64,000 bases of DNA, from contig CANMRM010000005.1 in NCBI GenBank assembly GCA_947500295.1, forward strand, positions 248,001-312,000. The letters are read 5' to 3'. Positions 13,934 to 64,000 of the stretch are shown piece by piece; position 1 is the stretch's first letter, and each line of letters opens with the position of its first letter. The notes beneath the pieces were generated by a model. The model searched no databases and was not told the DNA's origin. It worked only from the letters and a program-made list of their open reading frames with translations. This DNA is from an uncultured Kordiimonas sp. GTDB taxonomy: Bacteria > Pseudomonadota > Alphaproteobacteria > Sphingomonadales > Kordiimonadaceae. The position numbers and the translations under genes were made by a program.

Positions 13934-14012
13934 TGTCCGCGTCTCGTTAGGACTGTCTTAAGGAACAGTTGCTAAACCGGGCCTGTCGACAATTCGCACG
14001 AAGGATACCGGG

Positions 14013-14372: not shown

Positions 14373-14375
14373 CGC

Positions 14376-15242: not shown

Positions 15243-15244
15243 AC

Positions 15245-15274
15245 AAAAAAAACGGACCTCCGGAGGCCCGTTTT
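15245..15274. terminator. Bidirectional intrinsic terminator
   Basis: Arms AACGG-CCTCC at 15251-15261 and GGAGG-CCGTT at 15262-15272 (one mismatch) are bounded by an A-run on the left and TTTT on the right. It ends the NlpC/P60 transcript on the plus strand and, with eight T on the minus strand, the cytochrome transcript. Confidence 0.85.
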
Positions 15275-15296
15275 CCAAACATTGCTGTTTCCCGGC

Positions 15297-45548: not shown

Positions 45549-45558
45549 CTGACAGGTT

Positions 45559-45586
45559 TGCATGCGGGGCTTCGTCCCGGCATGCA
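45559..45586 (+). terminator. Hairpin after the pirin gene
   Basis: TGCATGC (45559-45565) pairs with GCATGCA (45580-45586), and the inner GGG with CCC around a six-base loop; one G-G mismatch. No clear T-run, so termination is likely but unproven. Confidence 0.6.
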
Positions 45587-45684
45587 GCCTATCGCCGCCA
45601 ATAAAACTGGCAGCGCCCGGGCGCCGTAGTATAACTAGACGTTAGCGCTGCGGCGCAGACCCATTCAGCACCGAGGGACCTCCA

Positions 45685-47511: not shown

Positions 47512-47518
47512 TTTTTTT
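47489..47518 (+). terminator. Intrinsic terminator overlapping the end of the antiporter gene
   Basis: Perfect 9-bp stem AGCCGGCGG (47489-47497), loop CAA, CCGCCGGCT (47501-47509), then seven T to 47518. The stop codon TGA (47509-47511) lies at the foot of the stem, so the last eight codons form the terminator. Confidence 0.9.
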
Positions 47519-47529
47519 CTCTGAGGTTC

Positions 47530-50500
47530 TTAGTTGATTTCGCGGTTGTCGCCGCGATAGATCTCAGGGTTGTCCCATGGGCGCTGGCCAAATGGTTTGG
47601 CCGCCGGCCATACTTCATCGAGGGTCTCGGCATCATAAAGGACACCACCCTGCATCACATGGCCAATATCCAGCGTATTGCGGATATCCTCAAGAGGGTT
47701 GGAGCGTAGCACCACCAAGTCAGCCAGCTTGCCCACTTCGAGTGTGCCGATGTCCTCGATCGCACCGAGGAAGTATGCGCCGTGCCGCGTTGCAACCTCT
47801 AGAGCCGCGTGCGCACCCATAGCGCTCGCAACCATCCAGGTTTCCCAATGCGAACCGATGCCATGCTGCTGCCCGTGGGAACCAATGGCGCCGTAGCCGC
47901 CTTCGGCAATGACATCCGCCATGCCCTGCGCAACCAACGGGAAGCTATAGTCCGTATCTGGCCGCTTGATCGGCCGACGGGTGTTGGGCACCAGTTGACG
48001 CCAAGGCAGCCATTTGCGCTGCTTTTCATCCTGCCAGACATTTGTCTCACCCCAGAAATATTCCTCATTCCATGCGCCGGGGCCACCCACCACAAATGTG
48101 GGGGAATAGACGGCTTTTGCCTGACCGAAAAACTTGGCCGCATCGCTGTAGAGCGGCATATAGCTCATCGGGTGCTCAAAACCGGTTTGACCGTCCATAA
48201 TCATGCCAAGATTGTACGCGAGATCGGACCCCTCGGACGTGACCATCAAGCCCTCCTTGCGGGCAATATCACTGACCCACTGACGCTGGTCGCGGCGCGG
48301 CTGCAGATACTGTTTCGCTGAAACAGCTCCCCATGATTTCAGGCGTCTGACGTTATCTTCCGCCACTTCATAGCTGGTGAGCAGGTTCTCGCGGGCGCCG
48401 TCGCGGTTATAAAGCGGACCACCAGACGAATAGGTGCGCGGCCCAACCACTTTGCCTGCATCAATCAGCTCTGCAGTCGGGAACACATTTTGCGCCGCAA
48501 CCGCATTATCAAGGGCCGTCGTAACACCGTAGGCTGTGTAAATCGCGGTTTCATAGCCACGCGCCGGAATGATACCTCGATAGTCGCGGAAATGGTGGGC
48601 GTGCATATCCACCATCCCCGGCATGATGGTGGACCCTGCAGCATCAATCACGCGGTCGGCATTACTGGTATCGCACGTGCCAAGACAGGAGATGCGGCTG
48701 CCTGTCACGACAATTGTCGAGCCCTCCAGTATCTCCTTGCCGCGCATGGTCAGAATACGGGCGTTGGTAAGCGCAACTGTTCCGGTTGGGATCCGCTTTT
48801 CCACCGTCAGGGAAATGTTGGATTCTTGTGTTTCGCCGCTTGCGACATCATACGTATAGTAGGTCGAGGCCGAGCCATATTCGAGCGTTCCATCACCGCG
48901 CCAATTCGGGAACAATCCACCTGTCCTGGAAAGTTGCTTAACCGGCAGGGCACCGTTGCCCGAGCCTTTGCTGACAAGGACCGGGTTGCCCCTCGATTGC
49001 CTGAACGGCAGAGGGGACAAATATACATTGTCTCCTTCGAGGAAAGCCACATGGCGTCCGTCCGGCGCGATCACCGCTTCATCTGCAAAATCAAAACGCG
49101 CATGAATACGCGGCGGGTCAATGGACGGCATGGCCGAAACAGACACGAGCTCTGAATAGGCTGGTGGGCCGCTACCATTTGCATGCTCGCCGCTATGCTG
49201 ATCGGAACTGTGCAGATCGTCCTCTTCAGCGCTTAATCCGGTGCCTGCACCTGGAGCACCCTGAAGGAAGAAAATCCGTCCATCCGGTCCCCAGGTCGGG
49301 CGCGGAAGCTGTGTTCGTCCACGTCCAAAATTACCACTGAAATCAACCCGCCCGACGGTGACCTCATCGCCGCCGCCCGCAGACATATGCACAATATCCC
49401 AGTAGGAATTGTGGGTCATCTCACGCCCACGCGCTGTTGCGTTGGAGCCTTTTGCAACCACGAGCGAATTACTGTCCGGGCTCCAGTCAGGGTGGATGTA
49501 CTCACCCGGTTCGCTGGTAATCTGTTTTGGTCTGCCACCCGAGGCGCGAACAGTCCAGACCTGCCCTCGCGTTATGTCATCCCAGGTTGTGAAGGCGATG
49601 GTACGCCCATCCGGGGACCATGCCGGCGAAAATTCGAAGGGCGCAAAGCTCTCCCGTGTCAGACGCTCGGGTGTGCCATTAGGCAGGTCCTGCACCCATA
49701 TCTTACCAACGGCCTGAAAGGCAAGTTTGCTGCCGTCCGGCGAAGCTGCCGTCCAGCGCAAAAACCTGGCTTTGAAGGGATCGTCCGTAATCCGGAAACC
49801 CTTATAGGCCTGCTCTGAAATTGTGCGTTCAACTTTGGCGGAAAACGGGATGGTCGACACCGCGCCTGACGCCACATCCACACGCCTGATCTTGCCACCC
49901 TGTGTTAAAATCACTGACTTGCCATCTGGCGCGAAACTATAACCCGGCAGCACGCGCAAGGTCTTCATGCCTTCGACCATATCCTGCGTTACCGGGTCCA
50001 TCAGAATGCGTTCTGTACCGGTTTCCAGGTCCCGCAGCCAAAGCGCTGTGCGCGGCCCAAATTTCAACCCTTTATATGAAATCGTACCGTCCGGGATACG
50101 GCGGATGAATGTCATCAATTTACCATCCGGCGAAATTTCAGGCGCTCCAGCACCGCCGCTGGAAAATCGTGATTGCTGTCGGTTGACACCATGACTGACG
50201 GCCTCAATATCGCCAGTTTCCAAATTCAGGCGACTAACCTGAATTTCACCTGCCAGCGAATTCCACTGGCCCCAGGTGGTGCCCGTACTGGTGCGCCTGT
50301 GGAAATAAAGCCACTGGCCGTCAGCGGTGGCTGTTGGCCAAGCTGCACCGACTTGTTCCCGGCCAACCAGCTCAATGCCTTTGCCGCCATCCTTGTGGAA
50401 CATCCAGATACCAGCGGCTGGCCGCGCACCGCGCTTGGGCAAGCCACGCTTGCGCACAAAAATATAGTCGCCGTCCGGACTCCATTCAGGCGTCAGGAAA

Positions 50501-50931
50501 CGCGCATTCAGATCCTTCACAATCTGGCGAGGGTTGCTGCCATCTGCGTCCATGACCCAGAGATTGTCCTGCCCTCCCCGATCCGAGATAAAGGCAATAT
50601 GGCTGCCGTCCGGAGAGATGGCTGGGTGATAATTGGTCGCTACACCGCTGTCTTGCGTCAAGCTGACAGCGTCACCGCCATTGATGGGCAGGCGGTAAAC
50701 GTGAGCGAGCAAGTCAAATACAAGCCAATTGCCATCCGGCGATACGTCGACAGACATGAAGGTGCCTTCGTCCGTGGTGAAAGAAATCTCCCGCACTTCG
50801 CCGCGTGCGAGTGTCGTGTCCCACTTGGCGTCGTCGCCTGTCTCATCATTTGCGTTGGAGACGATTGTCGCGGTTACCAGTGCGCCAAGCGCCAGCCCCG
50901 CCATACGGATGACCCGATAGAAACTCTGCAT
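47530..50931 (-). CDS. Giant secreted beta-propeller/amidohydrolase protein 1
   Basis: A 1133-residue protein. A signal peptide (RMAGLALGALVTATIVSNA) leads to a propeller region of PD40 repeats (ISPDGSHIAFISDRGGQDNLWVMD, WSPDGDYIFVRKRG, WSPDGRTIAFTTWD; residues about 60-700) and a C-terminal amidohydrolase domain. The metal motif is HAH in GMVDMHAHHFRDYRG, with further histidines in GFEHPMSYMPLYSD and SHGQQHGIGSHWE. The fold is shared by secreted peptidases and imidase-like enzymes; the substrate is unknown. ATG 50931 is chosen to give a normal signal peptide; ATG 50961 is in frame. It is 125 bases after the ABC exporter, with its own candidate promoter, and convergent with the antiporter. 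Confidence 0.82.
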   Translation of the reverse strand: MQSFYRVIRMAGLALGALVTATIVSNANDETGDDAKWDTTLARGEVREISFTTDEGTFMSVDVSPDGNWLVFDLLAHVYRLPINGGDAVSLTQDSGVATNYHPAISPDGSHIAFISDRGGQDNLWVMDADGSNPRQIVKDLNARFLTPEWSPDGDYIFVRKRGLPKRGARPAAGIWMFHKDGGKGIELVGREQVGAAWPTATADGQWLYFHRRTSTGTTWGQWNSLAGEIQVSRLNLETGDIEAVSHGVNRQQSRFSSGGAGAPEISPDGKLMTFIRRIPDGTISYKGLKFGPRTALWLRDLETGTERILMDPVTQDMVEGMKTLRVLPGYSFAPDGKSVILTQGGKIRRVDVASGAVSTIPFSAKVERTISEQAYKGFRITDDPFKARFLRWTAASPDGSKLAFQAVGKIWVQDLPNGTPERLTRESFAPFEFSPAWSPDGRTIAFTTWDDITRGQVWTVRASGGRPKQITSEPGEYIHPDWSPDSNSLVVAKGSNATARGREMTHNSYWDIVHMSAGGGDEVTVGRVDFSGNFGRGRTQLPRPTWGPDGRIFFLQGAPGAGTGLSAEEDDLHSSDQHSGEHANGSGPPAYSELVSVSAMPSIDPPRIHARFDFADEAVIAPDGRHVAFLEGDNVYLSPLPFRQSRGNPVLVSKGSGNGALPVKQLSRTGGLFPNWRGDGTLEYGSASTYYTYDVASGETQESNISLTVEKRIPTGTVALTNARILTMRGKEILEGSTIVVTGSRISCLGTCDTSNADRVIDAAGSTIMPGMVDMHAHHFRDYRGIIPARGYETAIYTAYGVTTALDNAVAAQNVFPTAELIDAGKVVGPRTYSSGGPLYNRDGARENLLTSYEVAEDNVRRLKSWGAVSAKQYLQPRRDQRQWVSDIARKEGLMVTSEGSDLAYNLGMIMDGQTGFEHPMSYMPLYSDAAKFFGQAKAVYSPTFVVGGPGAWNEEYFWGETNVWQDEKQRKWLPWRQLVPNTRRPIKRPDTDYSFPLVAQGMADVIAEGGYGAIGSHGQQHGIGSHWETWMVASAMGAHAALEVATRHGAYFLGAIEDIGTLEVGKLADLVVLRSNPLEDIRNTLDIGHVMQGGVLYDAETLDEVWPAAKPFGQRPWDNPEIYRGDNREIN

Positions 50932-51010
50932 GATAATGCCCCTGCCTGTGTGAAAACCCACGGGTGAAGCACCTATTCGTCAGCCTGACTTCCCCCTACG
51001 CCCGGGCACA

Positions 51011-51038
51011 AGTATACGCCTGACCCGAAATTAGACAA
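51011..51038 (-). promoter_or_regulatory. Candidate promoter of amidohydrolase gene 1
   Basis: On the minus strand, TTGTCT (51038-51033) and TATACT (51016-51011) with a 16-base spacer. It lies between the exporter stop and the 50931 start, suggesting a separate transcript from the exporter operon. Confidence 0.55.
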
Positions 51039-51056
51039 GGCTGGCTCAACCGAAGT

Positions 51057-53837
51057 TTAGGTCTTGCCTGCAGGATGAACCATCTTCGCAAACACGCCGC
51101 CCGATGTGGCGAGCTCATCAAAGCCACCGCTTTCAGCAATTTTGCCGTCCTTCAGGACAAAAATTTTGTCAGCCTGCTGAATGGTGGACAGACGGTGCGC
51201 AACAACAATACGGGTTACGGTCATGGCATCCAGCGCCTGAATCACGCGGGCCTGTGTCGGCTCGTCAAGGGCACTGGTCGCCTCATCGAGCATCAGCACC
51301 CGGGGCTTGGCCGCAATCGCACGAGCAAGCATCAACCGCTGTATCTGGCCACCCGAGAAATTGGATGTGCCCTGCGTAATCTGGGTTTGCATGCCCATAG
51401 GCATGGCACGAATGTCAGCGGCAATGCTCGCGGCCTCGGCCGCTGCCCACGCATCATCAATGCTGCATCCTGATGCGCCCCGAATATTGTCATAAAGGCT
51501 GCCGGGCATCGCCTGTCCAAGCTGCGTAACCGCAGAAACCTGCCGCCTGAGCGCACTGCTGAGAAGCATGCGACGGTCCTTGCCGTCAAAATGTACCGAG
51601 CCAAGTTCCGGCTCCAGCACGCCCAGCATCAACCTCAGCAGCGTAGACTTGCCGCTGCCAGAATCGCCGACAATCGCGACCGACTGACCGGGCATAACAG
51701 AAAGCGACACATCATCGAGAACCCAGAGTCCGTTTTCTTCATAGCGGAATGAAACCCCGTCCACGGAAACATGGCCTTTCAGCGGACCGGGGTCGCGCTT
51801 GTGCGCCTCTGAAACCGGCACCGTTTCCAAAAAAGGTTTCACCCGTTTTTTCTGGCCAATCAGCGGTGCAATCTGGCTGCCAAGATGGGCGATCGCCACG
51901 CTTGCTGACGTAAAGGTGCCGAGCGCTGCAATAAACGCCAGGTAAAGGCCGCTGTTGAGCGCACCATCTTTTGATACATCGGTGACAACCAGCAGGAAAA
52001 CAATAAGAATTGATGCCGCCTGAACCCCGCTCGAGAGGGATTGGAAACCGGTCTTGATCGCTCGCGAGCGCATCGACCGGGCACGGAGTTCACTAAAATT
52101 GTGAGCCCATTGGTTGAACGCCCAGCGCTCTGCTCCGGCAGCCTTGATCTTGTTGATTCCTGCCACCAGCTCAAGCGTCTGGTTAAAGGCACTGCCCCTA
52201 AAGCTTTCACCCTCGGCGATGGTGCGGCGCTGGAGGTATACTGTTAGAGCACTGGCGGCAAACAGCAAAAGTGAAAGCCCAAGCATCGCCAGCGCCATCA
52301 TCGGAAACAGAGTTGCCATAACAACCAGACTGGCAAGAAAATGCTGGCCACGAACAATCAGGGTATGCGCCAGTGATTGCACACTGGAGTGCATGCGCCC
52401 TGCTACCGACAACCGTTGCATCAAATCGCCGGTGCCAAACCGGCCAAAAAACTTTCCTGGAAAATGGAGCAGCCTGTGCCAGAGGGCAGACGTTGTCAGC
52501 AGCGCTGTTCGTCCCTGAATACGAAGGGCTGACAAGGCTGCAGCCCGATCGAGGAAAAAGGCAACGCCAGCAATGACGACAAGCGCGAGCACCAACTGAA
52601 CCAATTTGTCCGACAGGGAAGACGGTACTATGCGCGAAAAGGCAACCCCCATTCCGTATGGCAGCGCCATCGCAAGCATAGCGCTGCCAAGCCCCAGAAG
52701 GGTCATCGCAGTTGCATCCCGCCAGTTCGCGCGTGCACCAAAAATCAGAAAGTCTTTGAAGCTCAACTCCCGCTCTGGCAGCAACGGCGAAACCGTGTAA
52801 ATTTCCGCTGCAAGGCACGCCGCTTTTTCGGGGTCCAGAGAGGTTATACTCTCGGTTTCCGTATCGTAAATCCGTGTCCCTTTATTATCCGGCACCAGAA
52901 CAAAGGGCGTTTTATCTTCAAAGGCGAGCAGTGGCTCGCTGAGCGTCATCAGCTGGTGCATCGGCACGTTGACCGGTTGCGCGAGAAGGTCGGCACGACG
53001 GCAAACAGCAAATAATGACTTGTCTTTGTATTTTTCTGCCGTGCGGGGGAGAACAAAGCCTGCATGTTTTCCGAGCTCGGACAATGCCTTCAGCAATGGT
53101 GTGTCAAAACTCGCCTTGCCGCTGTTCTTGCCGAAAATGCGAGCAAAGTGTGCCAGTTCCTTCTGCAACACTGTATTTTCATAGGCGTCAATATCATGAT
53201 CGAGTGAAAGATGATCAGCGCCGTTTTTGGCTGCAAGGGACCCCAGGATGGTAAGCAAAACTGATGAGGCTTCTGTTGCCGCCGACGCGAGTTCTTCCGC
53301 GGGCAACTCACCGCTGCGGCGCACGGCAAACCGCGCGCCTTCCGGCAACATAATCTGTATACCGGGGGGCATGGAAAAGCTGTCACCTGCTGACAGTTGA
53401 TCCAGCGCTTCACCGGCAACCGACCATGCGAGACCCGAGGGGCAGTCCGGCAGAAGCGTGACCCAGTGAACGGCACCCCGGCTTTCCGCAACGGTGGGTG
53501 CATTGACAGTTAGGGAAGCGGCGGGCGCAAAAACATACCCCGGGTCTGATGGTGCCTCATGATGATATTCGACAATCTCGTGTGCAACCGTTGCCAGCCA
53601 TTGTTCCACTGGCTCCACAGCAGGCACCGTATCTTCCAGGCCTGCCCCGCCGCGCGGCCTGAAAACCAGCTCGACGTCGCCGTTGCCAATACTATCCATT
53701 GAGGGCAGAACAGAGTTTTCCGACATCCTGCCGATGAAAACAGGTGCAAAGCTTGCCGACCGGCTGCTCAGAAACACATCGCAATGCCCGGCAATCACGC
53801 GGTGCCAGCAAGGCTTCTGTGTGGCGCCCCCAGTCAC
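51057..53837 (-). CDS. NHLM-type peptidase-less ABC exporter (second ATPase)
   Basis: A 926-residue half-transporter. GTG 53837 is the start because AGGAG precedes it inside the end of the previous gene, one base after that stop. The N-terminal ~390 residues are the variable domain of NHLM ABC2 proteins, ending in a degenerate C39-like stretch without the catalytic cysteine (TPFVLVPDNKGTRIYD). The membrane domain (about 400-660) has five or six helices. The ATPase has Walker A GDSGSGKST (724-732), signature FSGGQ (827), Walker B RVLMLDEA (846-853) and H-loop histidine at about 881. It matches the second exporter of NHLM bacteriocin systems (TIGR03797 from memory). No leader peptidase of its own; it probably dimerises with or relays to the first exporter. 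Confidence 0.88.
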   Translation of the reverse strand: MTGGATQKPCWHRVIAGHCDVFLSSRSASFAPVFIGRMSENSVLPSMDSIGNGDVELVFRPRGGAGLEDTVPAVEPVEQWLATVAHEIVEYHHEAPSDPGYVFAPAASLTVNAPTVAESRGAVHWVTLLPDCPSGLAWSVAGEALDQLSAGDSFSMPPGIQIMLPEGARFAVRRSGELPAEELASAATEASSVLLTILGSLAAKNGADHLSLDHDIDAYENTVLQKELAHFARIFGKNSGKASFDTPLLKALSELGKHAGFVLPRTAEKYKDKSLFAVCRRADLLAQPVNVPMHQLMTLSEPLLAFEDKTPFVLVPDNKGTRIYDTETESITSLDPEKAACLAAEIYTVSPLLPERELSFKDFLIFGARANWRDATAMTLLGLGSAMLAMALPYGMGVAFSRIVPSSLSDKLVQLVLALVVIAGVAFFLDRAAALSALRIQGRTALLTTSALWHRLLHFPGKFFGRFGTGDLMQRLSVAGRMHSSVQSLAHTLIVRGQHFLASLVVMATLFPMMALAMLGLSLLLFAASALTVYLQRRTIAEGESFRGSAFNQTLELVAGINKIKAAGAERWAFNQWAHNFSELRARSMRSRAIKTGFQSLSSGVQAASILIVFLLVVTDVSKDGALNSGLYLAFIAALGTFTSASVAIAHLGSQIAPLIGQKKRVKPFLETVPVSEAHKRDPGPLKGHVSVDGVSFRYEENGLWVLDDVSLSVMPGQSVAIVGDSGSGKSTLLRLMLGVLEPELGSVHFDGKDRRMLLSSALRRQVSAVTQLGQAMPGSLYDNIRGASGCSIDDAWAAAEAASIAADIRAMPMGMQTQITQGTSNFSGGQIQRLMLARAIAAKPRVLMLDEATSALDEPTQARVIQALDAMTVTRIVVAHRLSTIQQADKIFVLKDGKIAESGGFDELATSGGVFAKMVHPAGKT

Positions 53838-53838
53838 G

Positions 53839-56022
53839 TTATGCACTCCTGAGCCGGGCAAATGGCCCCGCCCGCGCCGACAATTCAGCATAGGTGCCTG
53901 TTTCAACGATGCTGCCGCTCTCCAACACGAGAATGCGGTCAAAATTTCCAAGCGCAGACAGACGGTGGCTGACAAAAATAACTGTGACCCCAAGAGAAAG
54001 CAGTTCCTCTACAACCGCTTTTTCCGTAGGTGCATCCAAAGCACTAGTTGCTTCGTCCAGCACCAGGATAGTGGGCTCCAGAACGAGCGAGCGCGCAAGC
54101 TCTATACGTTGCCTCTCTCCGCCGCTGAAATTCTGGCCGTCCGCTTTAACGGCAGCATCAAATCCGCCCGGCCGGCGCATAATCACATCATGAATGCAGG
54201 CCGCGCGCGCAGCCTTGGTCAGCATTTCCACCGGCAGCGAGCGATCGCTGAGCGACAGGTTTGTGGCAATACTAGCCTCAAACAATCGCACCTCCTGGTC
54301 AACATACGCGAAGGAGGCATGCAGCGCCGTGTGATCCAGCTCTGAGCGCAACTTGCCATCATAAAGCAGGCTGCCCGACGTTGGCGCATGGAGCCCGGCA
54401 ATTATCTTTGCAAGGGTAGATTTGCCACTGCCCGAAGCGCCGACAATAGCAATGCATTCCCCCGCCGCAACATTAATGGAAACGTTCTTGATGACTGGTT
54501 CCGAGAAGGCGGAATAGCGAAAGCACAGATCCTGAATTTCAATTGCACCCGATAGTTTGTGCACGGTTTTGTCCGTACCGGCAGTTTCACGCAGGACCAT
54601 CTGGTCCCGGGGTTCGTGCAGAACGTCGTCGAGCCTTTCGAGGTTACCCTTCAGTTGCTGCAGCGCGCTGCCCAGGCCCAAAAGCTCGTTTACCGGCGCG
54701 GAAAACAGGGACATAAGCATCTGGAAAGCGATCAGCATGCCCACAGTGATCACGCCGTCCATCACATCGAAACCACCCACCAGAATGAGGGCTATCAGAG
54801 CCAGCGAAGACAGGAGAGTTGGCAATGTCTCCAGAACCGCCTGCTGCCTTCCGAGAACTTGTTGCTGATTGACGATTTCACGTTGATGGAATGTTAGGGT
54901 CTGGAGAAAACTCTCAACACCGCCACCAGCAATCAAACTTTCAACAGACTGCAGACCGCGACTGCCCTGTGTAAAAAACTGCGCTTCTTCAACAAGCAAC
55001 CTGCGGTGACCATCCGCGAGTTTGTTTTGCAGAAACCGTAGCGTCAGCAAATTAAGCCCGGCAAAAAATGCGGCAAGCGCCGTCAAACCCAAATTATATT
55101 GAGCCATAGCAATGGCGTAAACGAACATGGTGAGCAGACCAAGCGCCGCAAGCGCAACACGGTTGGTGAGTGTGCCTGCAATATGATCGTTGAGCGAAAC
55201 ACGGCTCGCCACTTCAGAGGCATTCCTGTGAGCAAAATAGCTGACCGGCAAGTGCAGGACGTGCCAAAAAAAACCGGTCGCGCCAACAAGTGCGATTTTG
55301 GCGTCAAGTTTCATCAATTGCCGGTCCCGCATCCAGGTCAACAAAGCCTGGACAACACCAACGGTGGCAATGGAGCCAAGCATTGGCCAATACCAACCCG
55401 GATGGCTCTCCAGAATGAAATAGTCTGCCAACACACGGTTGAAAGCAGGCAGGATCAAGCCTGGCACCGTTAACAACAGGCCAAGGAAAACGGTTACACC
55501 AAGAGCAACCCGAGTGCCTGACAAGCGTTTTTCGATGGCTGCAAGCAAGGTCGGGCGGGCACCGCCGGGTTCAAAACCATCGCCTGGCTCCAGCTTGAGA
55601 GCCACACCCGTATAGTGCTTTTCAAATTCTTCACGCGGCAATTTGCGGGGCCCGGTCGCCGGGTCGTTGAGCCAGGCCGTCGTTTCATCAAGGTGTTCAA
55701 GGACCAGAAAATGATTGAAGTCCCAAAACAATATGAGCGGAAACCCCATGGATGGAAGGTCGGCCGCTGATGCCTTGACACCTTTTGCGGCAAGCCCGTG
55801 CGCGCGGGCCGCTGTCAGAATTTCTTTGGCTTTGACACCGTCGCGGGACACACCACAGGATACACGCCAATATTCCAACGGTTTTGTAAGGCCATGATAC
55901 TCCGCAACAATTGCCAGTGCCGCAGCGCCGCACTCGATGGCTTCCATCTGGAGGACCGTGGGTGTTTTCGCTCGGTGCCTGTCACCACCGATCAATTGGC
56001 CAATGTGCCCAACAAAGCTCAC
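53839..56022 (-). CDS. NHLM-type C39 peptidase ABC exporter
   Basis: A 727-residue peptidase-containing half-transporter that cuts double-glycine leaders and exports the cargo. The C39 domain has the catalytic cysteine C31 (AIECGAAAL), histidine H104 (NHFLVLE) and aspartate D120 (WLNDPATG). The membrane domain spans about 165-440. The ATPase has Walker A GASGSGKST (528-536), signature FSGGE (632), Walker B ILVLDEA (652-658) and H-loop H686. All key residues are intact. It matches the first exporter of NHLM systems (TIGR03796 from memory). GTG 56022 is one base after the HlyD stop, so it is translationally linked. Confidence 0.92.
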   Translation of the reverse strand: MSFVGHIGQLIGGDRHRAKTPTVLQMEAIECGAAALAIVAEYHGLTKPLEYWRVSCGVSRDGVKAKEILTAARAHGLAAKGVKASAADLPSMGFPLILFWDFNHFLVLEHLDETTAWLNDPATGPRKLPREEFEKHYTGVALKLEPGDGFEPGGARPTLLAAIEKRLSGTRVALGVTVFLGLLLTVPGLILPAFNRVLADYFILESHPGWYWPMLGSIATVGVVQALLTWMRDRQLMKLDAKIALVGATGFFWHVLHLPVSYFAHRNASEVASRVSLNDHIAGTLTNRVALAALGLLTMFVYAIAMAQYNLGLTALAAFFAGLNLLTLRFLQNKLADGHRRLLVEEAQFFTQGSRGLQSVESLIAGGGVESFLQTLTFHQREIVNQQQVLGRQQAVLETLPTLLSSLALIALILVGGFDVMDGVITVGMLIAFQMLMSLFSAPVNELLGLGSALQQLKGNLERLDDVLHEPRDQMVLRETAGTDKTVHKLSGAIEIQDLCFRYSAFSEPVIKNVSINVAAGECIAIVGASGSGKSTLAKIIAGLHAPTSGSLLYDGKLRSELDHTALHASFAYVDQEVRLFEASIATNLSLSDRSLPVEMLTKAARAACIHDVIMRRPGGFDAAVKADGQNFSGGERQRIELARSLVLEPTILVLDEATSALDAPTEKAVVEELLSLGVTVIFVSHRLSALGNFDRILVLESGSIVETGTYAELSARAGPFARLRSA

Positions 56023-56023
56023 G

Positions 56024-57313
56024 TCAGGTGGCCTTTGGCGCAGGAAAAATCTTTTCCATAAACGGCAGCATCAACGAAATAAGCCGCACATTCCGTACAG
56101 TTACATCGGCCACGAACTCACTACCATGACCCACCAGAAAGGGCGGCCCGTTCGAGGAAGCCCAGCTGAAACCACTTGGCGTGTCGCCGGCCGGAAGATC
56201 CACACGAACCTGAAAAGCAACACCACCGTTCAACAGGGATGACACAAGCGCCCTGTTGCGTGTGTAGCGCAGCATTTCCTGATCACTCACCGGAAGGCTT
56301 GAGACCGAAGCAACCGTTCCTCGAATAAATCCAAATTCCTGTCGCTTCACCGTTGTTGGGTAGACTTTGGCCGTCATGTTCTTCTGAACTTCCGAGCCTT
56401 TTTCTGCCGGAACGAACAAATAACCCACAAGGCGACTATTGCTCGGATCCACCAACGCGATCCGTTCAGCCGTTGGCAGAATTGTCATCAGGGTCATGTC
56501 GGTTTGAATGACATCCCCTTCCGAGACCCGGATCTCCACCACACGCCCCGCAACCGGGCTGCGAATGACATTCTGGCGCGCCAGTTGATCTGAGAGCTGT
56601 TTCAGCTTCCGTTCCGCGGCAGCAACCTGAAGGTCGAGATCAAGAATATTTTGTGCATCCTCAATCTCCTGAAGCTGCGCCTGCTCGTCCAATCCGGACA
56701 AAGCAGCTTGAGTGGCTGTAATCGCACTTTGGGTTGATGAAACCTGGCTTTCAGTATTGATGACCACGGTGCGTGCAATAACACCCTGAGACAGCAACCG
56801 CTGTCGCTCCGTGAGTTGATTCTGGTAGGTTTGTAGAAGCTCTTGCTGTTCCTTCAGGGTCTGCGTCAACCGCGTGCGCCTCTCGGCTGAGAAGGCGTCC
56901 CGTGCCTGTTTTCTCGTTACATTGAAAGCCTGAATTTGCGAACGCTCATCTCGCACACCATCAAGTGCAGCCTGCGCCAGCGCAACATCGTCGGCAAGCG
57001 ATGCCTGATCAAGCCGGACGACCACATCACCCTCTGCAACGGTGTCGCCGACCTGGACATCGACATCCAGCACCTGTCCGCCCGCATAACTTGCGATGCT
57101 GGAAACGCCGCCCCGGTCGAGGATAACGCCTTTGCCTTCAACACTAATAGGGACAGTGGTAAAAATGGAGGCGACAAGCGCGCCCAGTACCAGAAGACCC
57201 AAAACGGCAACCGCATTCGCGAAACCGGGTTTCACCAGTTGAATACTGCCTGCGAGCTGGTCTGGCGTGGCGGCGTGCGCCAGCGCCTTTTTTTGGAAAA
57301 GTGTTTCAGCCAT
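56024..57313 (-). CDS. NHLM-type HlyD-family secretion adaptor
   Basis: A 429-residue periplasmic adaptor that joins the ABC exporter to the outer membrane. A single N-terminal membrane helix (AVAVLGLLVLGALVASIF, about residues 34-51) is followed by the lipoyl half-motif (VEGKGVILDRGGVSSIASYAGGQVLDVDVQVGD), a long coiled coil (about 110-240) and the second lipoyl half (NVIRSPVAGRVVEIRVSEGDVI). It matches NHLM secretion proteins (TIGR03794 from memory). It is 42 bases after the 200-residue unknown protein gene. No outer-membrane TolC-like factor is in the window. Confidence 0.9.
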   Translation of the reverse strand: MAETLFQKKALAHAATPDQLAGSIQLVKPGFANAVAVLGLLVLGALVASIFTTVPISVEGKGVILDRGGVSSIASYAGGQVLDVDVQVGDTVAEGDVVVRLDQASLADDVALAQAALDGVRDERSQIQAFNVTRKQARDAFSAERRTRLTQTLKEQQELLQTYQNQLTERQRLLSQGVIARTVVINTESQVSSTQSAITATQAALSGLDEQAQLQEIEDAQNILDLDLQVAAAERKLKQLSDQLARQNVIRSPVAGRVVEIRVSEGDVIQTDMTLMTILPTAERIALVDPSNSRLVGYLFVPAEKGSEVQKNMTAKVYPTTVKRQEFGFIRGTVASVSSLPVSDQEMLRYTRNRALVSSLLNGGVAFQVRVDLPAGDTPSGFSWASSNGPPFLVGHGSEFVADVTVRNVRLISLMLPFMEKIFPAPKAT

Positions 57314-57355
57314 AGGTCATCTTCCCAAATCCTGACGGGTTTTGAAAGACGTCTA

Positions 57356-57958
57356 TTAATCCCTGAGTGCGGCCGTAGCATCCAGAGCCTGATAAAAGGC
57401 TGCTTCAAGGGCCGCGCCCCTATCCATCGCCGCATAAAAAGCAGCGCGAGCACGCTCCATTTTTTCTGCATCTCCAGCTTTTGATGTGTCAAGCTTTTGG
57501 GAAATGATGCGCTCAAAGGCTGCTTTCGGGTCTTCACCATTATCCGCCGCGGACATGATTGACCAGGCGGCATGAGCCCTTTGAGCCAGTGCAATTGCCA
57601 GATGCGTGGCACCGGCTGTATTGGCACCGCGCTCCACGGCTCTGAAGAAAATCAGCTCGGCCTGAGACGCGATATGTTTCGCTTCCTCTTCGCTCCAGCC
57701 TTCGGCTGGCGCGTTGTCCGCTATGATTTTCCGAAGGGCCTGACGCACCCGAAGAATGGATTCGCGCAGTGCTTCCAGGTCTGTCTGCGAGCCGTCACCA
57801 TCAGAAGGTTGCGGCAACCGGGCGTCGGCCGCCGGTTCGCCAAACCAGGCCTTTTCATGAGGAAACCCGCTCAGGAGAGCGCCATCACCCGGCAAAAGCG
57901 CGCCACCATAACAAGATGGGTCAAGCCGATCGGTTTCGATATTTACTGTCTCTGGCAT
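57356..57958 (-). CDS. Unknown 200-residue protein in the exporter operon
   Basis: A 200-residue protein without signal peptide, membrane helix or cysteine pairs (one cysteine, near residue 17). The N-terminal 55 residues are polar and Pro/Gly rich; the rest is helical and alanine-rich (EALRESILRVRQALRKIIAD, HLAIALAQRAHAAWSIMSAA, AAFYAAMDRGAALEAAFYQAL). No family is recognised. It lies 12 bases after the repeat-protein gene and 42 before the HlyD gene, so it is part of the operon and may be a chaperone, an immunity protein or a regulator of export. The alanine-rich helices suggest a protein-binding bundle. Confidence 0.72.
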   Translation of the reverse strand: MPETVNIETDRLDPSCYGGALLPGDGALLSGFPHEKAWFGEPAADARLPQPSDGDGSQTDLEALRESILRVRQALRKIIADNAPAEGWSEEEAKHIASQAELIFFRAVERGANTAGATHLAIALAQRAHAAWSIMSAADNGEDPKAAFERIISQKLDTSKAGDAEKMERARAAFYAAMDRGAALEAAFYQALDATAALRD

Positions 57959-57970
57959 GATTTATCCCCC

Positions 57971-59314
57971 TCAGAAAATCGATTTGAATGCATGAGAAAT
58001 TGAGTGCCCCACACTGCTGGCGGCGTGGGATATCGAGTGCCCCACATTGCTGGCTTCATGGGAAATCGCGTGGCCGACGTTGCTGGCCTCGTGGGAAATA
58101 TCATGCCCCACAGTGCTGGCTTCGTGCGATATTGCATGACCGACATTACTCGCTTCATGGGAAATGGCGTGGCCAACGTTGCTGGCTTCGTGGGAAATCG
58201 CGCTACCTGCTGCATCAAAACCATGCTCGATTGAGTGGCCTGCGGATTCAAAACCATGTTCAATGGAATGCCCTGCAGACTCAAAGCCATGCGCGACGGA
58301 CTCGCCCGCATGCTCTAGCCCATGTGCCATTTCACCAACGTTGATTGTTGTGCTCAGGTTGAAACTGGCGCCAAACAATTCAATGTCCGCACTGCCACCG
58401 ATACCCAGCGTAAGTTCGCCGTCATTGTATGTGGCTTCACCGGATATACCGGCACCAAGAGCACCCGGCGAGTGGATGGAACCACCTGCCGTTACATTGT
58501 TGTCGTCGCTGCCTACCGTGCCGCTTGCGCCGACTTCAGCATATTCGCCTTCTTCGGCACTTACGTTTTCGGCAACGCCGTGGTCGTCCGCTTCAACGGA
58601 CGCGGTCGCCGACGCGCCCTCAGATACACCGGCGTGGACTTCACCACTGGCCGACGCGCCGCCACCAATATTACCGCTGACGCCTGCGCCTGCTTCTGCT
58701 GTCACGGAGGCACCCGCTTCCGCGTCAGCTTTCACGCCTTCATTGCTAACGGACGCACTGGCGTCGGCGTGGGCTTCTTCGGTCGTCTGAACCCCCACAG
58801 TGCCGGTTACGCCGCCGCCAAGGCTGCCGCTGTCGCTGACGCCCTGGCTCGCAGATACGGAAACACCTGCACTGCCTTCAACGTCTACACCGCCCGGCCC
58901 GATTGTTGCCGTGCCTGATGCATCGGCAGACGCAGTTTCGTTGGTTTCTGCGGTCACACCGTGGCCGAGGTTAGCGTTCGTGCTGTCACTTACAGAGGCG
59001 CTGGCTTCGCCTGTGGCACTGACGCCATCAGACGAGACGCTGACGCTGCTGTCCGTTCCAGCATCGGTTGTGACATGATTGCCTTGCGATTCGTCCGTAT
59101 CAGCATTGACATGACCCACCTGATCACCCGAAACGATATTCTCGGCCAGCGGATTGTCTTCCTCTTCTTCACCGTCATCGCCTTCACCGGCAGCAGCGTC
59201 ATCTTCGCTGGCTTTGGCTTCTGTATGTTGATCCGCGCCCACACCACCGGTGATGCCTTCGAGTGCATCATCATCCAGTTCCTGTGGGCCACCTTCCATA
59301 TCGTCCATGCTCAT
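57971..59314 (-). CDS. Large double-glycine-leader protein with histidine-rich 11-residue repeats, proposed cargo of the exporter
   Basis: A 447-residue acidic protein without cysteine. Residues 1-24 form a double-glycine leader: ELDDDALEGITGG (12-24) has the acidic/hydrophobic pattern and GG of C39 peptidase leaders, so cleavage after G24 is expected. Residues 30-60 are strongly acidic. Residues about 75-310 are rich in Ser, Ala, Gly, Thr and Val with alternating polarity (SVSVSSDGVSATGEASASV), suggesting an extended beta-rich repeat domain. Residues 331-440 are ten 11-residue units (HEASNVGHAIS type), then HAFKSIF. The ATG at 59314 follows GGGAGAT. It is first in the operon, just where a precursor gene is expected. 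It is far longer than known bacteriocin precursors. No homologue is recognised. Confidence 0.8.
   Translation of the reverse strand: MSMDDMEGGPQELDDDALEGITGGVGADQHTEAKASEDDAAAGEGDDGEEEEDNPLAENIVSGDQVGHVNADTDESQGNHVTTDAGTDSSVSVSSDGVSATGEASASVSDSTNANLGHGVTAETNETASADASGTATIGPGGVDVEGSAGVSVSASQGVSDSGSLGGGVTGTVGVQTTEEAHADASASVSNEGVKADAEAGASVTAEAGAGVSGNIGGGASASGEVHAGVSEGASATASVEADDHGVAENVSAEEGEYAEVGASGTVGSDDNNVTAGGSIHSPGALGAGISGEATYNDGELTLGIGGSADIELFGASFNLSTTINVGEMAHGLEHAGESVAHGFESAGHSIEHGFESAGHSIEHGFDAAGSAISHEASNVGHAISHEASNVGHAISHEASTVGHDISHEASNVGHAISHEASNVGHSISHAASSVGHSISHAFKSIF
57995..58324 (-). repeat. Ten 33-bp coding repeats (11-residue histidine-rich units)
   Basis: Codons for residues 331-440 of the cargo protein form ten in-register 33-bp units. 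Two early copies (HGFESAGHSIE) are identical in protein, and five later units share HEAS(N/T)VGH. The DNA copies differ at third positions, so the repeat is maintained at protein level and is not a fresh slippage expansion. Confidence 0.9.
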
Positions 59315-59334
59315 GTTTTATCTCCCTAATGAGT

Positions 59335-59368
59335 GGCGCGCACGCGCCGACTCAATCCACCAATTGAG
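59335..59368 (-). promoter_or_regulatory. Two hairpins in the leader of the cargo gene
   Basis: GGCGCG-CA-CGCGCC (59335-59348) and CTCAAT-CCACCA-ATTGAG (59351-59368) are perfect 6-bp stems located 21 to 54 bases upstream of the start codon, next to the ribosome site. They may affect translation or transcript stability. Confidence 0.5.
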
Positions 59369-59407
59369 GATTATGGAGCCACAGCAAAATGTCGAGCACA
59401 AGGCAGG

Positions 59408-59448
59408 AATTGTCTAAATTTGTCTCTGAAAATGTCGCAATTTGTATC
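59408..59448. promoter_or_regulatory. Direct repeats upstream of the cargo gene
   Basis: AATTTGTCTC at 59417-59426 and AATTTGTATC at 59439-59448 are 22 bases apart, with a shorter third copy AATTGTCTA at 59408-59416. Distance to the start codon is about 94-134 bases. They look like a tandem activator site. Confidence 0.5.
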
Positions 59449-59457
59449 AGGCAGGAT

Positions 59458-59486
59458 ACCGACACACACCGAAAATGTGTGCCGGT
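59458..59486 (-). terminator. Hairpin after amidohydrolase gene 2
   Basis: ACCGACACAC (59458-59467) pairs with GTGTGCCGGT (59477-59486) with one mismatch. It is 27 bases past the stop of the amidohydrolase gene. No T-run, so moderate confidence as a terminator. Confidence 0.5.
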
Positions 59487-59513
59487 AGTGGATCAGTGCA
59501 TCTTCACGAAAAC

Positions 59514-62500
59514 TCAGTTTTCCTGAAAATACATCGCTGGTGTCGAGGCCGGGTTCGGGAAGACGCGAGACGCGTCCTCGCCCTTGTAGAGCACACCGTT
59601 TTGTATCACCCAGGTGATCGCCCTTGCGTTCCGGATATCATCAAGCGGGTTTTCTGAAAGCACCAGCAGATCGGCATATTTTCCCACTTCCAGTGAACCA
59701 ATTTCGTCACCAAAACCATGGTATCTGGCACCATTAATGGTCGAAATTTCAATGATCTGCTCCGGGGTAAACCCGCCTTGCTGGAAGAGCTCCATCTCCC
59801 AGTGGGCATCGAGGCCGCTCATCTGACCATGCGCTCCAAGCTGCAGGGAAATGCCTGCTTCATACAGTGGCTTCAGCGCAGCTGCCATCCTGGGTGCATA
59901 GTGCTCATCATCCCAGTAGAAAGTGGGGCGACGAACCCGCAAAAGCTCATCCCGCGTCTGGAACTTCAACAGTTTTGGATTTTCCCAGACCCGCTCATTG
60001 TGGTGGAAATACTGCTCGCCGGCAGGACCATTGTAGACAACGATCAGCGTCGGCGTGATGCCCACATCTGTTGCTGCCATAAACCGCACAACATCGCTGT
60101 AGAGTGGTGTCATGCCCATAGAGTGCTCGAGCCCGGTGATACCATCGACAACCTGCGTCAGGTTCATCTGCAGGTTGGCAGCGGTTTCGGCGACATCATG
60201 GAGGCCAAGCTCACGAGAGGCTGCGACCGTCGCGTGGCGTGCGCGCCGAGAGAACTGTGTATAGTCTTTCACCGCTTCTGCACCAAAAGCCTGATTATAG
60301 CTCAGGGCCTGCCGGGCTTCTTCCAGGCTATCGATCGGTCGCATCAGCCCCTTGCGGTATTTGGCACCAAAAATCGGCGTGCCGACCGTGAACAACCGCG
60401 GCCCATAGGTCAGGCCGGCCTCAAGCCGGTCTCTGATCCAGGCGTCCTTTTCCGCGGTACCGTACACTTCATAAAGCGTGGTAACGCCGTGCGCAAGTGG
60501 CGACAAGAGCCCCGATACAGACTCTTCAATGGTGTGAAGATAGGACTGCACATTGCCGCCATAGTGACCATGTGCGTCGATTATGCCGGGCATGATCGTC
60601 TGGCCGCTTGCATCAAACACCTGTGCACCGCGCGGAATATTGATGTTCTGGCCAATGGCACTGATACGATTGTTTTCGATCAGAATGCTGGCGTTTTCAA
60701 GCACGCGCCGACCTTCATCCATTGTGATGATCCGGGCGTTGGTGATGGCGATAGTACTGTCCGGTACCGCAACATCGTATGAAACCGCGATGTTTGTGAC
60801 AGAGGCGTCACCGCCCTCTTCAGCCAGCACGTCCTCAAGTGATTTCCTGTAAAAATCCGTGCCTCGGGTCCAATAAAGGCTTGCACTGTCATCGGACCAC
60901 CCGAGATACACACCTTCCGCCGTATCAATACGCTTGGTGAAGCCCGTCTTGTTTTCACCGCTGACCTTGATGGTTTTTCCAACAAATTCAAACGGAGTGA
61001 CAAAAGCCCGCTGGTATTCGCGGAAGGCAACCCACTTCATATCGGGAGAGATAACGGCACGCGTGGACCATGGGAAATGATAGAGCTCCTGCTCGCCTTC
61101 CCCGTCAATGCCTATGCTTTTCAGTTTCAGGCCATCATCGGTAAACTCTGAGAAATAGATTTTTCGGCTATCAGCGGAAAACATCAGCGGAGAAGCACGC
61201 CGGATTTCAGGCGTGTTGCCGTTGGACCATTGCGCCCCCACGTCAGTCACCTTCCATGTGGTACCGTTTTCGTCGCGTACCATGAGATCGAAACTGGTCT
61301 GGTTTTCAATCCTGCCGCCATTTTTCAGGCTGCCGGGGCCTCGCAAAAATGCAAGCTTTGAGCCGTCATGCGACAGGGCAAGCGCTCCATACTGGGTTGG
61401 CAGGTCCGTCAATGTCTCGGCGGCACCCCCCGCGAGCGGACGACGTTTGATTGCACCAAAGCCTATGTCGCTCCAGGTCGCATAATAAAGCATGCCCGAA
61501 GGCGCGTGATAGAGCGGGTTGGTTTCCAGTTCGGCACTGTTGGTGATGTTACGCGAAGTCCCGCTCGAATGGAGATACAGGTCCCCCAGAGCTTCCGACA
61601 GAATACCTCCGGCGGCAGGTGCCGCAAATCGCTGTATACGGGTTTGCTGGCGACCTGACTTAATGGGGTTGGTCGTGCGAACGGTGGCATTAACCTCCCG
61701 GGACACTGCGGCTCTGAACGGAATATCGCTGACGCGTCCTGTGTCCATGTTCACCCGTTTGAGCCCACCCTTGTCGCTCAACACAATATCTGTGTTGTTG
61801 GCCCAGCTCATGCCGGCACTTGAGCCATATTGGCTGAGGTTCTCCATCTGGTCCCGGTCTAGACCTTCAAGCACCAACCTGTCCTGATTGGTCTCAAGGT
61901 CGCGGACATAAAGAGCACGCACCAGATCTTCCCGGCCCATGTAGGCCAGACGCTTGCCATCAGGTGACAGTTGCGGATTGAATGCCCCTCCGGCCCGCTG
62001 GATCAAAATCTCGGTTTTGCCGGTTTTTTTGTTGAAACGATAGATGCGGGCGCCGTCACCGGGCAGGCGGCCATTGATGTGCTCGTAGTAGAAATACCCC
62101 CGCTCCGCATCGTCAACAAAATGGTTGGCAAATCGAAATACGGCACTCTCGACAAGTTCCTGTTTCTTGCCAAAACGATTATATATTTCGCCGTGCAGGG
62201 TGAGCTCTTTCGGGAAACGAACCGCCAATATATGCCGACCGTCCGCCGACCAGTTGCCCCGCAGAACCGGATCCTCTGATTTGGTCAGGTTTTCAAGCTC
62301 TCCGCTTTCGCGGTTCATAATCCAGATATTGTCGACACCGTTGCGATCTGAGGTGAACGCGATTTCGCCGCCATCCGGGCTGTAGCGTGGCATCTGGTTC
62401 CAGGAGCGTCCCTCGGTCAGCCGGCGGGCGTTGCCCCCCTCAATCGGCATTTCATAAATATGGCCAAGCAGGTCAAAGATGACGGTCTGCCCATCGGGTG

Positions 62501-62684
62501 ACACATCGACACTCATCCAGGTGCCTTCCTGAGTATCAAAATCCACCTGAAGGGTTGGTGTACCCTCCGGGTTGGCCGTGTCGATTGACCACTCTTCCTT
62601 TTTGTTGTCTGCGTTCTCCTGTGCACTGACACTGCCAGCTGCAATAAACACAAGTGCCGTAAGCACTGCCCAAACCTGTGCCAT
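59514..62684 (-). CDS. Giant secreted beta-propeller/amidohydrolase protein 2
   Basis: A 1056-residue relative of the protein at 47530-50931. ATG 62684 follows GGGGAGGGTTATC. The signal peptide (VWAVLTALVFIAAGSVSA) is followed by PD40 propeller repeats (YSPDGGEIAFTSDRNGVDNIWIM, LSPDGKRLAYMGREDL, ISPDMKWVAFREYQ) and an amidohydrolase domain with HGH in GIIDAHGHYGG, GLEHSMGMTPLYSDVVRF and LGAHGQMSGLDAHWE. The two proteins share layout and active-site wording but differ clearly in sequence, so they are old paralogues. The enzyme likely cleaves an amide or cyclic amide outside the cytoplasm. It is 199 bases upstream of the cargo gene. Confidence 0.82.
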   Translation of the reverse strand: MAQVWAVLTALVFIAAGSVSAQENADNKKEEWSIDTANPEGTPTLQVDFDTQEGTWMSVDVSPDGQTVIFDLLGHIYEMPIEGGNARRLTEGRSWNQMPRYSPDGGEIAFTSDRNGVDNIWIMNRESGELENLTKSEDPVLRGNWSADGRHILAVRFPKELTLHGEIYNRFGKKQELVESAVFRFANHFVDDAERGYFYYEHINGRLPGDGARIYRFNKKTGKTEILIQRAGGAFNPQLSPDGKRLAYMGREDLVRALYVRDLETNQDRLVLEGLDRDQMENLSQYGSSAGMSWANNTDIVLSDKGGLKRVNMDTGRVSDIPFRAAVSREVNATVRTTNPIKSGRQQTRIQRFAAPAAGGILSEALGDLYLHSSGTSRNITNSAELETNPLYHAPSGMLYYATWSDIGFGAIKRRPLAGGAAETLTDLPTQYGALALSHDGSKLAFLRGPGSLKNGGRIENQTSFDLMVRDENGTTWKVTDVGAQWSNGNTPEIRRASPLMFSADSRKIYFSEFTDDGLKLKSIGIDGEGEQELYHFPWSTRAVISPDMKWVAFREYQRAFVTPFEFVGKTIKVSGENKTGFTKRIDTAEGVYLGWSDDSASLYWTRGTDFYRKSLEDVLAEEGGDASVTNIAVSYDVAVPDSTIAITNARIITMDEGRRVLENASILIENNRISAIGQNINIPRGAQVFDASGQTIMPGIIDAHGHYGGNVQSYLHTIEESVSGLLSPLAHGVTTLYEVYGTAEKDAWIRDRLEAGLTYGPRLFTVGTPIFGAKYRKGLMRPIDSLEEARQALSYNQAFGAEAVKDYTQFSRRARHATVAASRELGLHDVAETAANLQMNLTQVVDGITGLEHSMGMTPLYSDVVRFMAATDVGITPTLIVVYNGPAGEQYFHHNERVWENPKLLKFQTRDELLRVRRPTFYWDDEHYAPRMAAALKPLYEAGISLQLGAHGQMSGLDAHWEMELFQQGGFTPEQIIEISTINGARYHGFGDEIGSLEVGKYADLLVLSENPLDDIRNARAITWVIQNGVLYKGEDASRVFPNPASTPAMYFQEN

Positions 62685-62791
62685 GATAACCCTCCCCATT
62701 TATAGACCGGGATCAGGATACCGCCTTCAATGACCAGACTGGAGTCTATTTTTAGATTAGTGAGACAAACCCGTGTATTACCGAGAGAAAA

Positions 62792-64000
62792 TCACGGATT
62801 TCCGGCAAGATATTGATGGACGTTCGAGACAACGACTGACCCCTCACCAACAGCTGACGCAACCCGTTTGACTGACCCTGACCTGACATCTCCAACCGCA
62901 AAAACACCAGCGCAGGATGTTGCAAACGGGCCATTGGCGGGGCACTGGGACGTTCCGGTAATCACAAAACCTTTTTCATCCAGGGCGACAAAGTCCTTGA
63001 GCCACCTGGTATTCGGCACCGCGCCGGCCATTACAAACATCGCACTGCAATCAATGTCGAAAGTTGATGCGTCGGCGGAGTTGTGTGCCGTCAACCGTTC
63101 CAACTGGGCTTCGCCGTGCAGCGCTTTAACCTGTGTCGTGGTGTGAATGGTTACACCTGGGTCCTGTTCAAGGCGGTTCAGAAGATAGTGCGACATGCTG
63201 GCCGCCATTGAGTTACCGCGAACCATGATATGCACGTGCTTGGCGTATCGGGAAAGGAACATGGCCGCCTGACCAGCCGAGTTGCCGCCACCGATGACCA
63301 CCACTTCAGTGTTTCGGCAGAAACGTGCCTCGAGTTCGGTTGCCGCATAATAGACGCCTGCGCCTTCAAACTCCTCCAGCCGTTCAAGAGGCAAGCGCCG
63401 ATATTGCACGCCGGTTGCCACCACAAGGCTGCGCGTATTGACAACACTGCCATCGTTGCAGGTGACTTCCAGATAGTCTTTGGTTTGCCTGAGACCTACG
63501 GCACGCAAAGGCATCGTGAACCTGGCCCCGAACTTGATCGCCTGGACTTCGCCGCGCCAGATCAGGTCGCCGCCTGAAATACCGGTCGGAAACCCCATAT
63601 AGTTTTCAATACGCGACGATGTACCCGCCTGCCCACCAATGGCCGTGTCTTCAATCACAACCGTCGAAAGCCCCTCTGAAGCGCCGTAAACTGCGGCAGC
63701 AACTCCTCCGGGCCCCGCACCGACAACAGCAAGGTCGGCGACGCAGGCTTCTTCAACACTGAGGCTGATACCGAGTGTTTTCGCCAAGCTGGCAGGCGAT
63801 GGGTCTTTCAGGACCTGCTTGTCCCCAAACACGACACTGAATGTCGAGACATCAATTCCGCATTGACGGCCGAGTTCCTGCGCACGCTCCCCCTCGGGGT
63901 CCAATAGGCGGTAGGGAATTTTGTTGCGGTTCGCGAATTCAAGCAGGCGCAACGCCTTCGGGTCCTGCTCGCTCGCGATAACGTTCAGACCGCCAAGATT
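62792..64000 (-). CDS. Thioredoxin-reductase-like FAD oxidoreductase (5' end outside window)
   Basis: The frame is open to the window edge (first visible residues NLGGLNVIASEQDPKA), so the N terminus is missing; about 402 residues are seen. The FAD-binding motif VVGAGPGGVAAAVYGASEG and the NAD(P)H motif VVIGGGNSAGQAAMFL are present, with the C-terminal GVFAVGDVRSGSVKRVASAVGEGS. The redox CxxC of classical thioredoxin reductase is replaced by a GGQAGTSSRIENYMGFP stretch, the mark of a family usually fused N-terminally to a cyclic-nucleotide-binding or response-regulator domain. That domain would lie outside this window. It is upstream of the amidohydrolase gene on the same strand (107 bases). 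Confidence 0.85.
   Translation of the reverse strand, partial: NLGGLNVIASEQDPKALRLLEFANRNKIPYRLLDPEGERAQELGRQCGIDVSTFSVVFGDKQVLKDPSPASLAKTLGISLSVEEACVADLAVVGAGPGGVAAAVYGASEGLSTVVIEDTAIGGQAGTSSRIENYMGFPTGISGGDLIWRGEVQAIKFGARFTMPLRAVGLRQTKDYLEVTCNDGSVVNTRSLVVATGVQYRRLPLERLEEFEGAGVYYAATELEARFCRNTEVVVIGGGNSAGQAAMFLSRYAKHVHIMVRGNSMAASMSHYLLNRLEQDPGVTIHTTTQVKALHGEAQLERLTAHNSADASTFDIDCSAMFVMAGAVPNTRWLKDFVALDEKGFVITGTSQCPANGPFATSCAGVFAVGDVRSGSVKRVASAVGEGSVVVSNVHQYLAGNP

Follow-up and report, generated by a model that had tools for sequence, protein, structure and literature searches.

A compact five-gene cassette in the genome of an uncultured Kordiimonas species probably forms a self-contained secretion unit, in which a large protein with a double-glycine (GG) leader would be cut and leave the cell unmodified to act as a surface or matrix protein, with a protein of 200 amino acids (aa) as its helper. 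Our check of the open reading frames (ORFs) in the window (i.e., the whole stretch of 64,000 nucleotides [nt] analyzed, to which all positions refer unless a locus is named) located the five genes exactly where the original prediction had them, in a row on the minus strand (51057–59314) with intergenic gaps of 12, 42, 1, and 1 bases. Three of them encode transport proteins, namely, a HlyD-type periplasmic adaptor of the NHLM class (56024–57313, minus strand; TIGR03794, 254.4 bits against a cut-off of 156.2), a C39 peptidase-permease-ATPase of the NHLM ABC1 class (53839–56022, minus strand; TIGR03796, 819 bits against a cut-off of 853), and a peptidase-less permease-ATPase of the NHLM ABC2 class with a GTG start and a long N-terminal region (51057–53837, minus strand; TIGR03797, 588 bits against a cut-off of 709). 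The proposed assignment of these proteins to an NHLM trio by hidden Markov models therefore stood for HlyD, the only member above its curated NHLM cut-off, and held in part for the two ABC proteins, which score below their equivalog cut-offs yet have TIGR03796 (next family at 344 bits) and TIGR03797 (next family at 295 bits), respectively, as their best families by far. The TIGR03796 cut-off is also missed in 8 of the 27 alphaproteobacterial genomes with a strong match. Because one of the three curated cut-offs is passed and the three genes adjoin one another, with one C39-bearing and one peptidase-less ABC protein among them, "diverged NHLM-class trio" is the careful name that their sequences suggest.

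The exporter appears intact, as had been claimed. More specifically, the C39 domain occupies residues 20–147 of the first ABC protein (PF03412, 4e-31) and contains Q25/C31, H104, and ND119-120, and the Walker A, ABC signature, and Walker B motifs are preserved in each of the two ABC proteins. The nearest solved relatives of the C39-ABC protein are bacteriocin-type exporters, including 4ry2 (6e-86). PADLOC matches on the ABC proteins were set aside as generic ATPase matches, and no relatives of the HlyD protein were found in phage contigs (viral_contigs). The cassette contains no gene for an outer membrane channel.

The remaining two genes encode the cargo (57971–59314, minus strand) and the 200-aa protein (57356–57958, minus strand). 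The cargo is a protein of 447 aa, and both its ORF and its leader were verified. The leader comprises 24 residues (59243–59314, minus strand) and ends in ELDDDALEGITGG at residue 24, so that the predicted cut lies before V25 and the mature protein would start there. In its published form, the NHLP/Nif11 cleavage motif has acidic residues at positions 1 and 4, Leu at 2 and 7, a hydrophobic residue at 10, and GG at 12-13 (PMC2887384); the cargo leader fits this motif, and the precursor domain of ~80 residues is missing. Likewise, comparison of eight cargos revealed the features of a C39-substrate leader, i.e., an acidic leader and a hydrophobic-x-GG end. Behind the leader follow an acidic linker, a beta-rich region dominated by Gly, Ala, Ser, and Thr (residues ~79–325; 58340–59080, minus strand), 11-residue helical repeats, and a C-terminal aromatic residue. 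The beta-rich region is delimited by alignments, which also revealed a conserved cap, EATYxDGxLTLG, near its end, and by a run of beta strands predicted at low confidence by AF2. The C-terminal tail (57974–58324, minus strand), which ends in FKSIF, is a near-perfect tandem repeat with a unit of 33 nt; its self-identity peaks at a lag of 11, its hydrophobic positions stand 3-4-4 apart, and its hydrophobic moment peaks at 98 degrees. Helices of this 11/3 type, with moments around 98 degrees, serve in membrane binding or assemble into right-handed coiled coils. The AF2 model of the cargo shows beta strands followed by one long helix, at a low confidence (mean pLDDT, 41). No family for the cargo was found in Pfam and NCBIfam, and the cargo appears to represent a family undescribed in the libraries searched.

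That the gene is real rather than a chance reading frame follows from its conservation in a congener (G070), which has the same layout spread over two contigs: over the beta region, the cargos of the window and of G070 share 92% identity at the protein level versus 76.5% at the DNA level, a disparity that also indicates purifying selection on this region. Where the residues of the beta region are identical, 56% of the codons differ at their third position. The transporters are less conserved than the beta region (62–76% amino acid identity), the leader and acidic linker differ more than the beta region, and the repeat tail is the most divergent part of the cargo (45% identity).

The original prediction had called for a survey of neighborhoods in which a long GG-leader protein precedes such a trio, and we found the arrangement to recur, with homologous cargos of 365–942 aa directly adjoining NHLM transporters, in at least seven other genomes (i.e., congener G070, Azospirillum oryzae, Rhodopila, Rhodoferax, Phaeobacter, Pseudoponticoccus, and the alphaproteobacterial genome G561). 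On an Azospirillum oryzae plasmid, a GG-leader protein of 365 aa lies directly before HlyD, C39-ABC, and ABC genes, and no maturation enzyme is annotated within 10 kb of that locus. Scanning 84,980 species genomes for HlyD with a three-sequence alignment (a broader one lacked a sufficiently conserved stretch) and then inspecting the upstream regions yielded cargos in Rhodopila (425 aa), Rhodoferax (613 aa), Phaeobacter J2-8 (942 aa), and Pseudoponticoccus marisrubri (916 aa), where the lengths for Rhodoferax and Phaeobacter count from upstream starts and the true starts may lie later. The G561 locus came from profile searches that covered about 780 genomes. Azospirillum, Rhodoferax, Phaeobacter, and Pseudoponticoccus each have all three transporter genes, and in Rhodopila the trio breaks off at a contig end. 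A filter of ORFs by third-position G+C hid real Gly/Ala-rich cargos, and no conclusion rests on it. All eight GG-leader members of the family, which come from alphaproteobacteria and a metagenome-assembled genome (MAG) named Rhodoferax, have a complete or partial NHLM trio next to them.

Pairwise BLAST linked the window cargo to that of Rhodoferax (1e-29) and the Azospirillum cargo to that of Rhodoferax (7e-33). In a control with shuffled 30-residue blocks, the best of 200 shuffles reached 32 bits versus 111 bits for the real sequences, which indicates that the homology of the cargos exceeds what composition would give. Consistently, a profile of the core, run against the 11,738 reading frames of the retrieved loci, matched nothing outside the family, and it detected only one further genome, G853, among 398 of the phylum. 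All GG-leader members share a leader end of the NHLP/Nif11 pattern, a Gly/Ala/Ser/Thr-rich region with the EATYxDGxLTLG cap, and an aromatic-ended tail. Of nine tails compared for their hydrophobic moment, six have the peak at 98 degrees (the window cargo, G070, Azospirillum, Rhodoferax, Phaeobacter, and Pseudoponticoccus), two at 99 degrees (G561 and G853), and that of Rhodopila has a weaker one at 94 degrees. The Azospirillum tail weakly resembles apolipophorin-III, a lipid-binding helical protein, at a level below the cut-off (E, 0.001). On plasmids, the repeat tail had weak matches (to phage tail and tape-measure proteins and to an unannotated Nostoc stretch), which were rejected as repeat likeness. 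As the pairing of cargo and exporter recurs in unrelated bacteria, these data suggest an undescribed family of secreted surface proteins.

Genome G853 encodes two full-length family members that lack a GG leader and a nearby NHLM trio and start with an apparent Sec signal peptide. Their link to the family comes from the profile match (1e-11 to 1e-9, with no shuffle reported); pairwise BLAST against single cargos gave scores mostly within those of shuffles, with one pair above (41 versus 26 bits). These Sec-type members would place the module in an exported context by another route, which favors an extracellular role of the beta/helical-tail module. Both G853 proteins (L144:5557-7641 and L145:5117-7072) carry the beta and helical-tail module and have similar aromatic ends (KHAFHF and KKAFRW). 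In a partial protein of genome G340 (L148:877-1752), the module precedes SDARLKENI, a stretch similar to a tail-fibre (S74-type) chaperone domain.

Comparison with a second congener, G029, places the cassette within an insertion. By blastn, window positions 45003–50825 and 59524–63997 match positions 6512–12341 and 12460–16947 of the G029 locus L154, leaving an inserted cassette at 50826–59523, where the limits are those of the alignment and not exact ends. In G029, the flanking amidohydrolase genes are adjacent, with the stop of one over the start of the other; the outer flanks keep the same order in both genomes, and the window has about 8.6 kb extra. The C39-ABC gene of the cassette is present in 2 of the 20 genomes of the genus, and an NHLM HlyD scored over its cut-off in 3 of the 198 genomes of the order. 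On these sequence comparisons, gain of the cassette in the lineage of the window would be the simpler reading. The G+C content of the cassette (55.9% versus 55%) gives no sign of foreign origin. The flanking genes (47530–50961 and 59514–62699) encode paralogous TolB-like/amidohydrolase fusions that are 29% identical to each other.

Association with NHLP and Nif11 precursors was what defined the trio class (Haft et al. 2010, PMC2887384), and the original prediction had seen neither such a precursor nor a lanthionine synthetase or cyclodehydratase in the window. For the YcaO, LanC-like, and Nif11 families, this claim now extends to the whole genome, the completeness of which is estimated at 100%: we found no YcaO cyclodehydratase, no match to LanM/LanC-type enzymes (LANC_like), and no Nif11 precursor (TIGR03798) over the cut-off (best score, 14.7 bits versus 32.3). 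A short precursor just outside the window, which would have spoken against the prediction, was also sought, and within the window and about 78 kb of its flanks the strict NHLP/Nif11-type motif matched once, in the cargo leader, with no second occurrence. By the tests for Nif11 precursor, YcaO, and LanC-like proteins, the locus does not appear to be an NHLP/Nif11 natural-product cluster. Together with the recurrence of the layout and the homology of the cargos, the missing YcaO, LanC-like, and Nif11 genes support the predicted use of the trio for a large, unmodified cargo.

The 200-aa protein remains, as first described, without a family in Pfam or NCBIfam and without a solved fold among its matches (best E, 0.21). 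Its AF2 single-sequence model consists of helices (pLDDT about 63–91 for residues 61–196), its sequence contains no clear membrane segment, and no plasmid relative was found. At three of the cargo loci, the protein is the neighbor of the cargo, and it is missing from several others. In G561, the cargo and the homologue (30% identity, 3e-8) are located downstream of the second ABC gene; since the two still adjoin each other on the other side of the transporters, they have moved as a pair relative to these. In a congener MAG, the homologue (L042:453-1056) is split over two frames, by either an assembly error or decay of the gene, and this broken frame and the limited presence at three loci imply that the protein is not essential in all members. 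It is most likely a cytosolic helper or cargo chaperone that would keep the long substrate export-competent.

From these features we infer how the cassette would operate. The 447-aa protein would be the dedicated substrate of the trio, with the C39 domain of the first ABC protein reading the acidic GG leader and cutting after Gly24, while the 200-aa helical protein would hold the long chain export-competent in the cytosol. The unmodified chain of 423 residues would then pass the ABC pair and the HlyD adaptor, with a TolC-like channel presumably supplied from elsewhere in the genome. Outside the cell, where the cargo would most likely serve as a surface or matrix protein, a beta-rich body would be combined with a long 11/3 amphipathic helix that may bind membrane, envelope, or other copies of the protein. 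We counted against this model that the two ABC proteins score under the NHLM cut-offs, that the cassette includes no channel gene, and that AF2 models the cargo with low confidence. The main objection is the length of the cargo, because CvaAB, one studied C39 exporter, exports poorly above about 100 aa (PMC10231218). This objection is countered by the Treponema denticola proteins TDE_0422 and TDE_0424 (607–614 aa), which carry a double-glycine leader, are encoded beside tepA1-tepB1, and reach the culture supernatant (PMC11879956).

Several known systems resemble parts of the cassette. The HlyA/RTX type I systems export a large substrate through an ABC protein and a HlyD adaptor by means of an uncut C-terminal signal; in contrast, the window cargo has an N-terminal GG leader and lacks RTX repeats. 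The cassette would work like a C39 type I exporter, sharing with the microcin V exporter CvaAB a HlyD-type adaptor and, as predicted here, an N-terminal leader that the ABC protein removes with its protease domain, whereas CvaAB has a single ABC protein and a native cargo of 88 aa, with export falling at 116 aa (PMC10231218). With the described NHLM/NHLP trio it shares the tight order of HlyD, C39-ABC, and ABC and the leader cleavage motif; it differs in the missing YcaO and LanC-like genes, Nif11 precursor, and NHLP/Nif11 precursor domain, in the 423 residues of the mature cargo, and in two proteins that stay under the curated cut-offs (PMC2887384). In Treponema denticola, long GG-leader proteins likewise adjoin a bacteriocin-type ABC exporter, but the organism and the transporter are different, and the dual-ABC NHLM trio is not described there (PMC11879956). 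The original prediction had not recognized the layout from described systems; it is new for the NHLM class, but the Treponema denticola precedent means that it is not without parallel.

A toxic role stays a rival because the Cdz type I substrates of Caulobacter, which are apparently unmodified, aggregate on the cell surface and kill on contact (PMC5380434), as might a cargo that is predicted to be kept on the surface. The window cargo could by analogy be a contact-dependent bacteriocin held on the producer, with the 200-aa protein as its immunity factor, and the long amphipathic helix of its tail and the small second gene downstream would suit such a role. We nevertheless consider this unlikely, in that Cdz consists of a pair of small hydrophobic glycine-zipper proteins (CdzC and CdzD) rather than one large cargo, its immunity protein CdzI resides in the inner membrane whereas the helical 200-aa protein has no evident membrane segment and is missing at several cargo loci, and the beta region is strongly conserved, not diversifying. 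Given that the trio class was defined by precursor linkage (PMC2887384), one could also propose that the exporter acts on a short modified peptide from a gene elsewhere in the genome, the large protein being a passenger of the locus; the genome-wide lack of YcaO, LanC-like, and Nif11-precursor matches over cut-off, the single strict leader motif near the locus, and the recurrence of the cargo-trio link in distant genomes make this highly improbable. We likewise give very little credence to export followed by further cutting of the cargo, with its 11-residue repeats released as short peptides: the near-perfect repetition of the tail and its strong difference between congeners (45% identity) would fit, but the cassette lacks a protease gene, no cleavage site is conserved in the repeats, and the hydrophobic phase runs on as it would in a single continuous helix.

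Secretion of the intact mature cargo, the reading we prefer, bears on how type I systems are divided. These systems usually split into exporters of large proteins and cutters of N-terminal leaders from small cargo (PMC10231218), and here both traits come together, in that an N-terminal GG leader precedes mature cargos of about 340–890 residues in the cassette and its relatives. A bolder proposal, which we put forward only tentatively and hold to be rather doubtful, is a third kind of type I system that is specialized for long unmodified beta/hendecad exoproteins. Such a machine would combine C39 cleavage with two ABC proteins, and the peptidase-less second one, together with the helper, would lift the length limit observed for single-ABC C39 exporters; if so, the use of the trio for short modified peptides would be only one branch. 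Annotation pipelines call such transporters "NHLP bacteriocin" exporters, and our results warn that an NHLM trio alone should not be taken as a modified-peptide cluster. The compact five-gene cassette also lends itself to asking how long a cargo C39 exporters can handle and what the second ABC protein contributes.

In addition, other exporter-linked loci were observed. A second, unrelated kind of GG-leader protein lies directly before NHLM trios in four alphaproteobacterial genomes (L073, L074, L075, and L076); these proteins are helical-looking, extend for roughly 170–185 aa after the leader, and end in NIIxNMR. Short GG peptides with about 10–17 residues after the GG were found before NHLM HlyD genes in Magnetospirillum and Telmatospirillum (L094:6687-6884 and L096:6542-6691), where they are preceded by PEP-CTERM-like proteins. 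In the genome of the window itself, contig C3 carries a second exporter locus (L047:5003-12052) with a GG-leader ORF, an M16-type peptidase, a C39-ABC protein, and a HlyD-type protein, and contig C5 contains, about 35–40 kb past the end of the window, an open frame of >4,800 aa in the vicinity of a HlyB-type ABC exporter (L044:1-14591).
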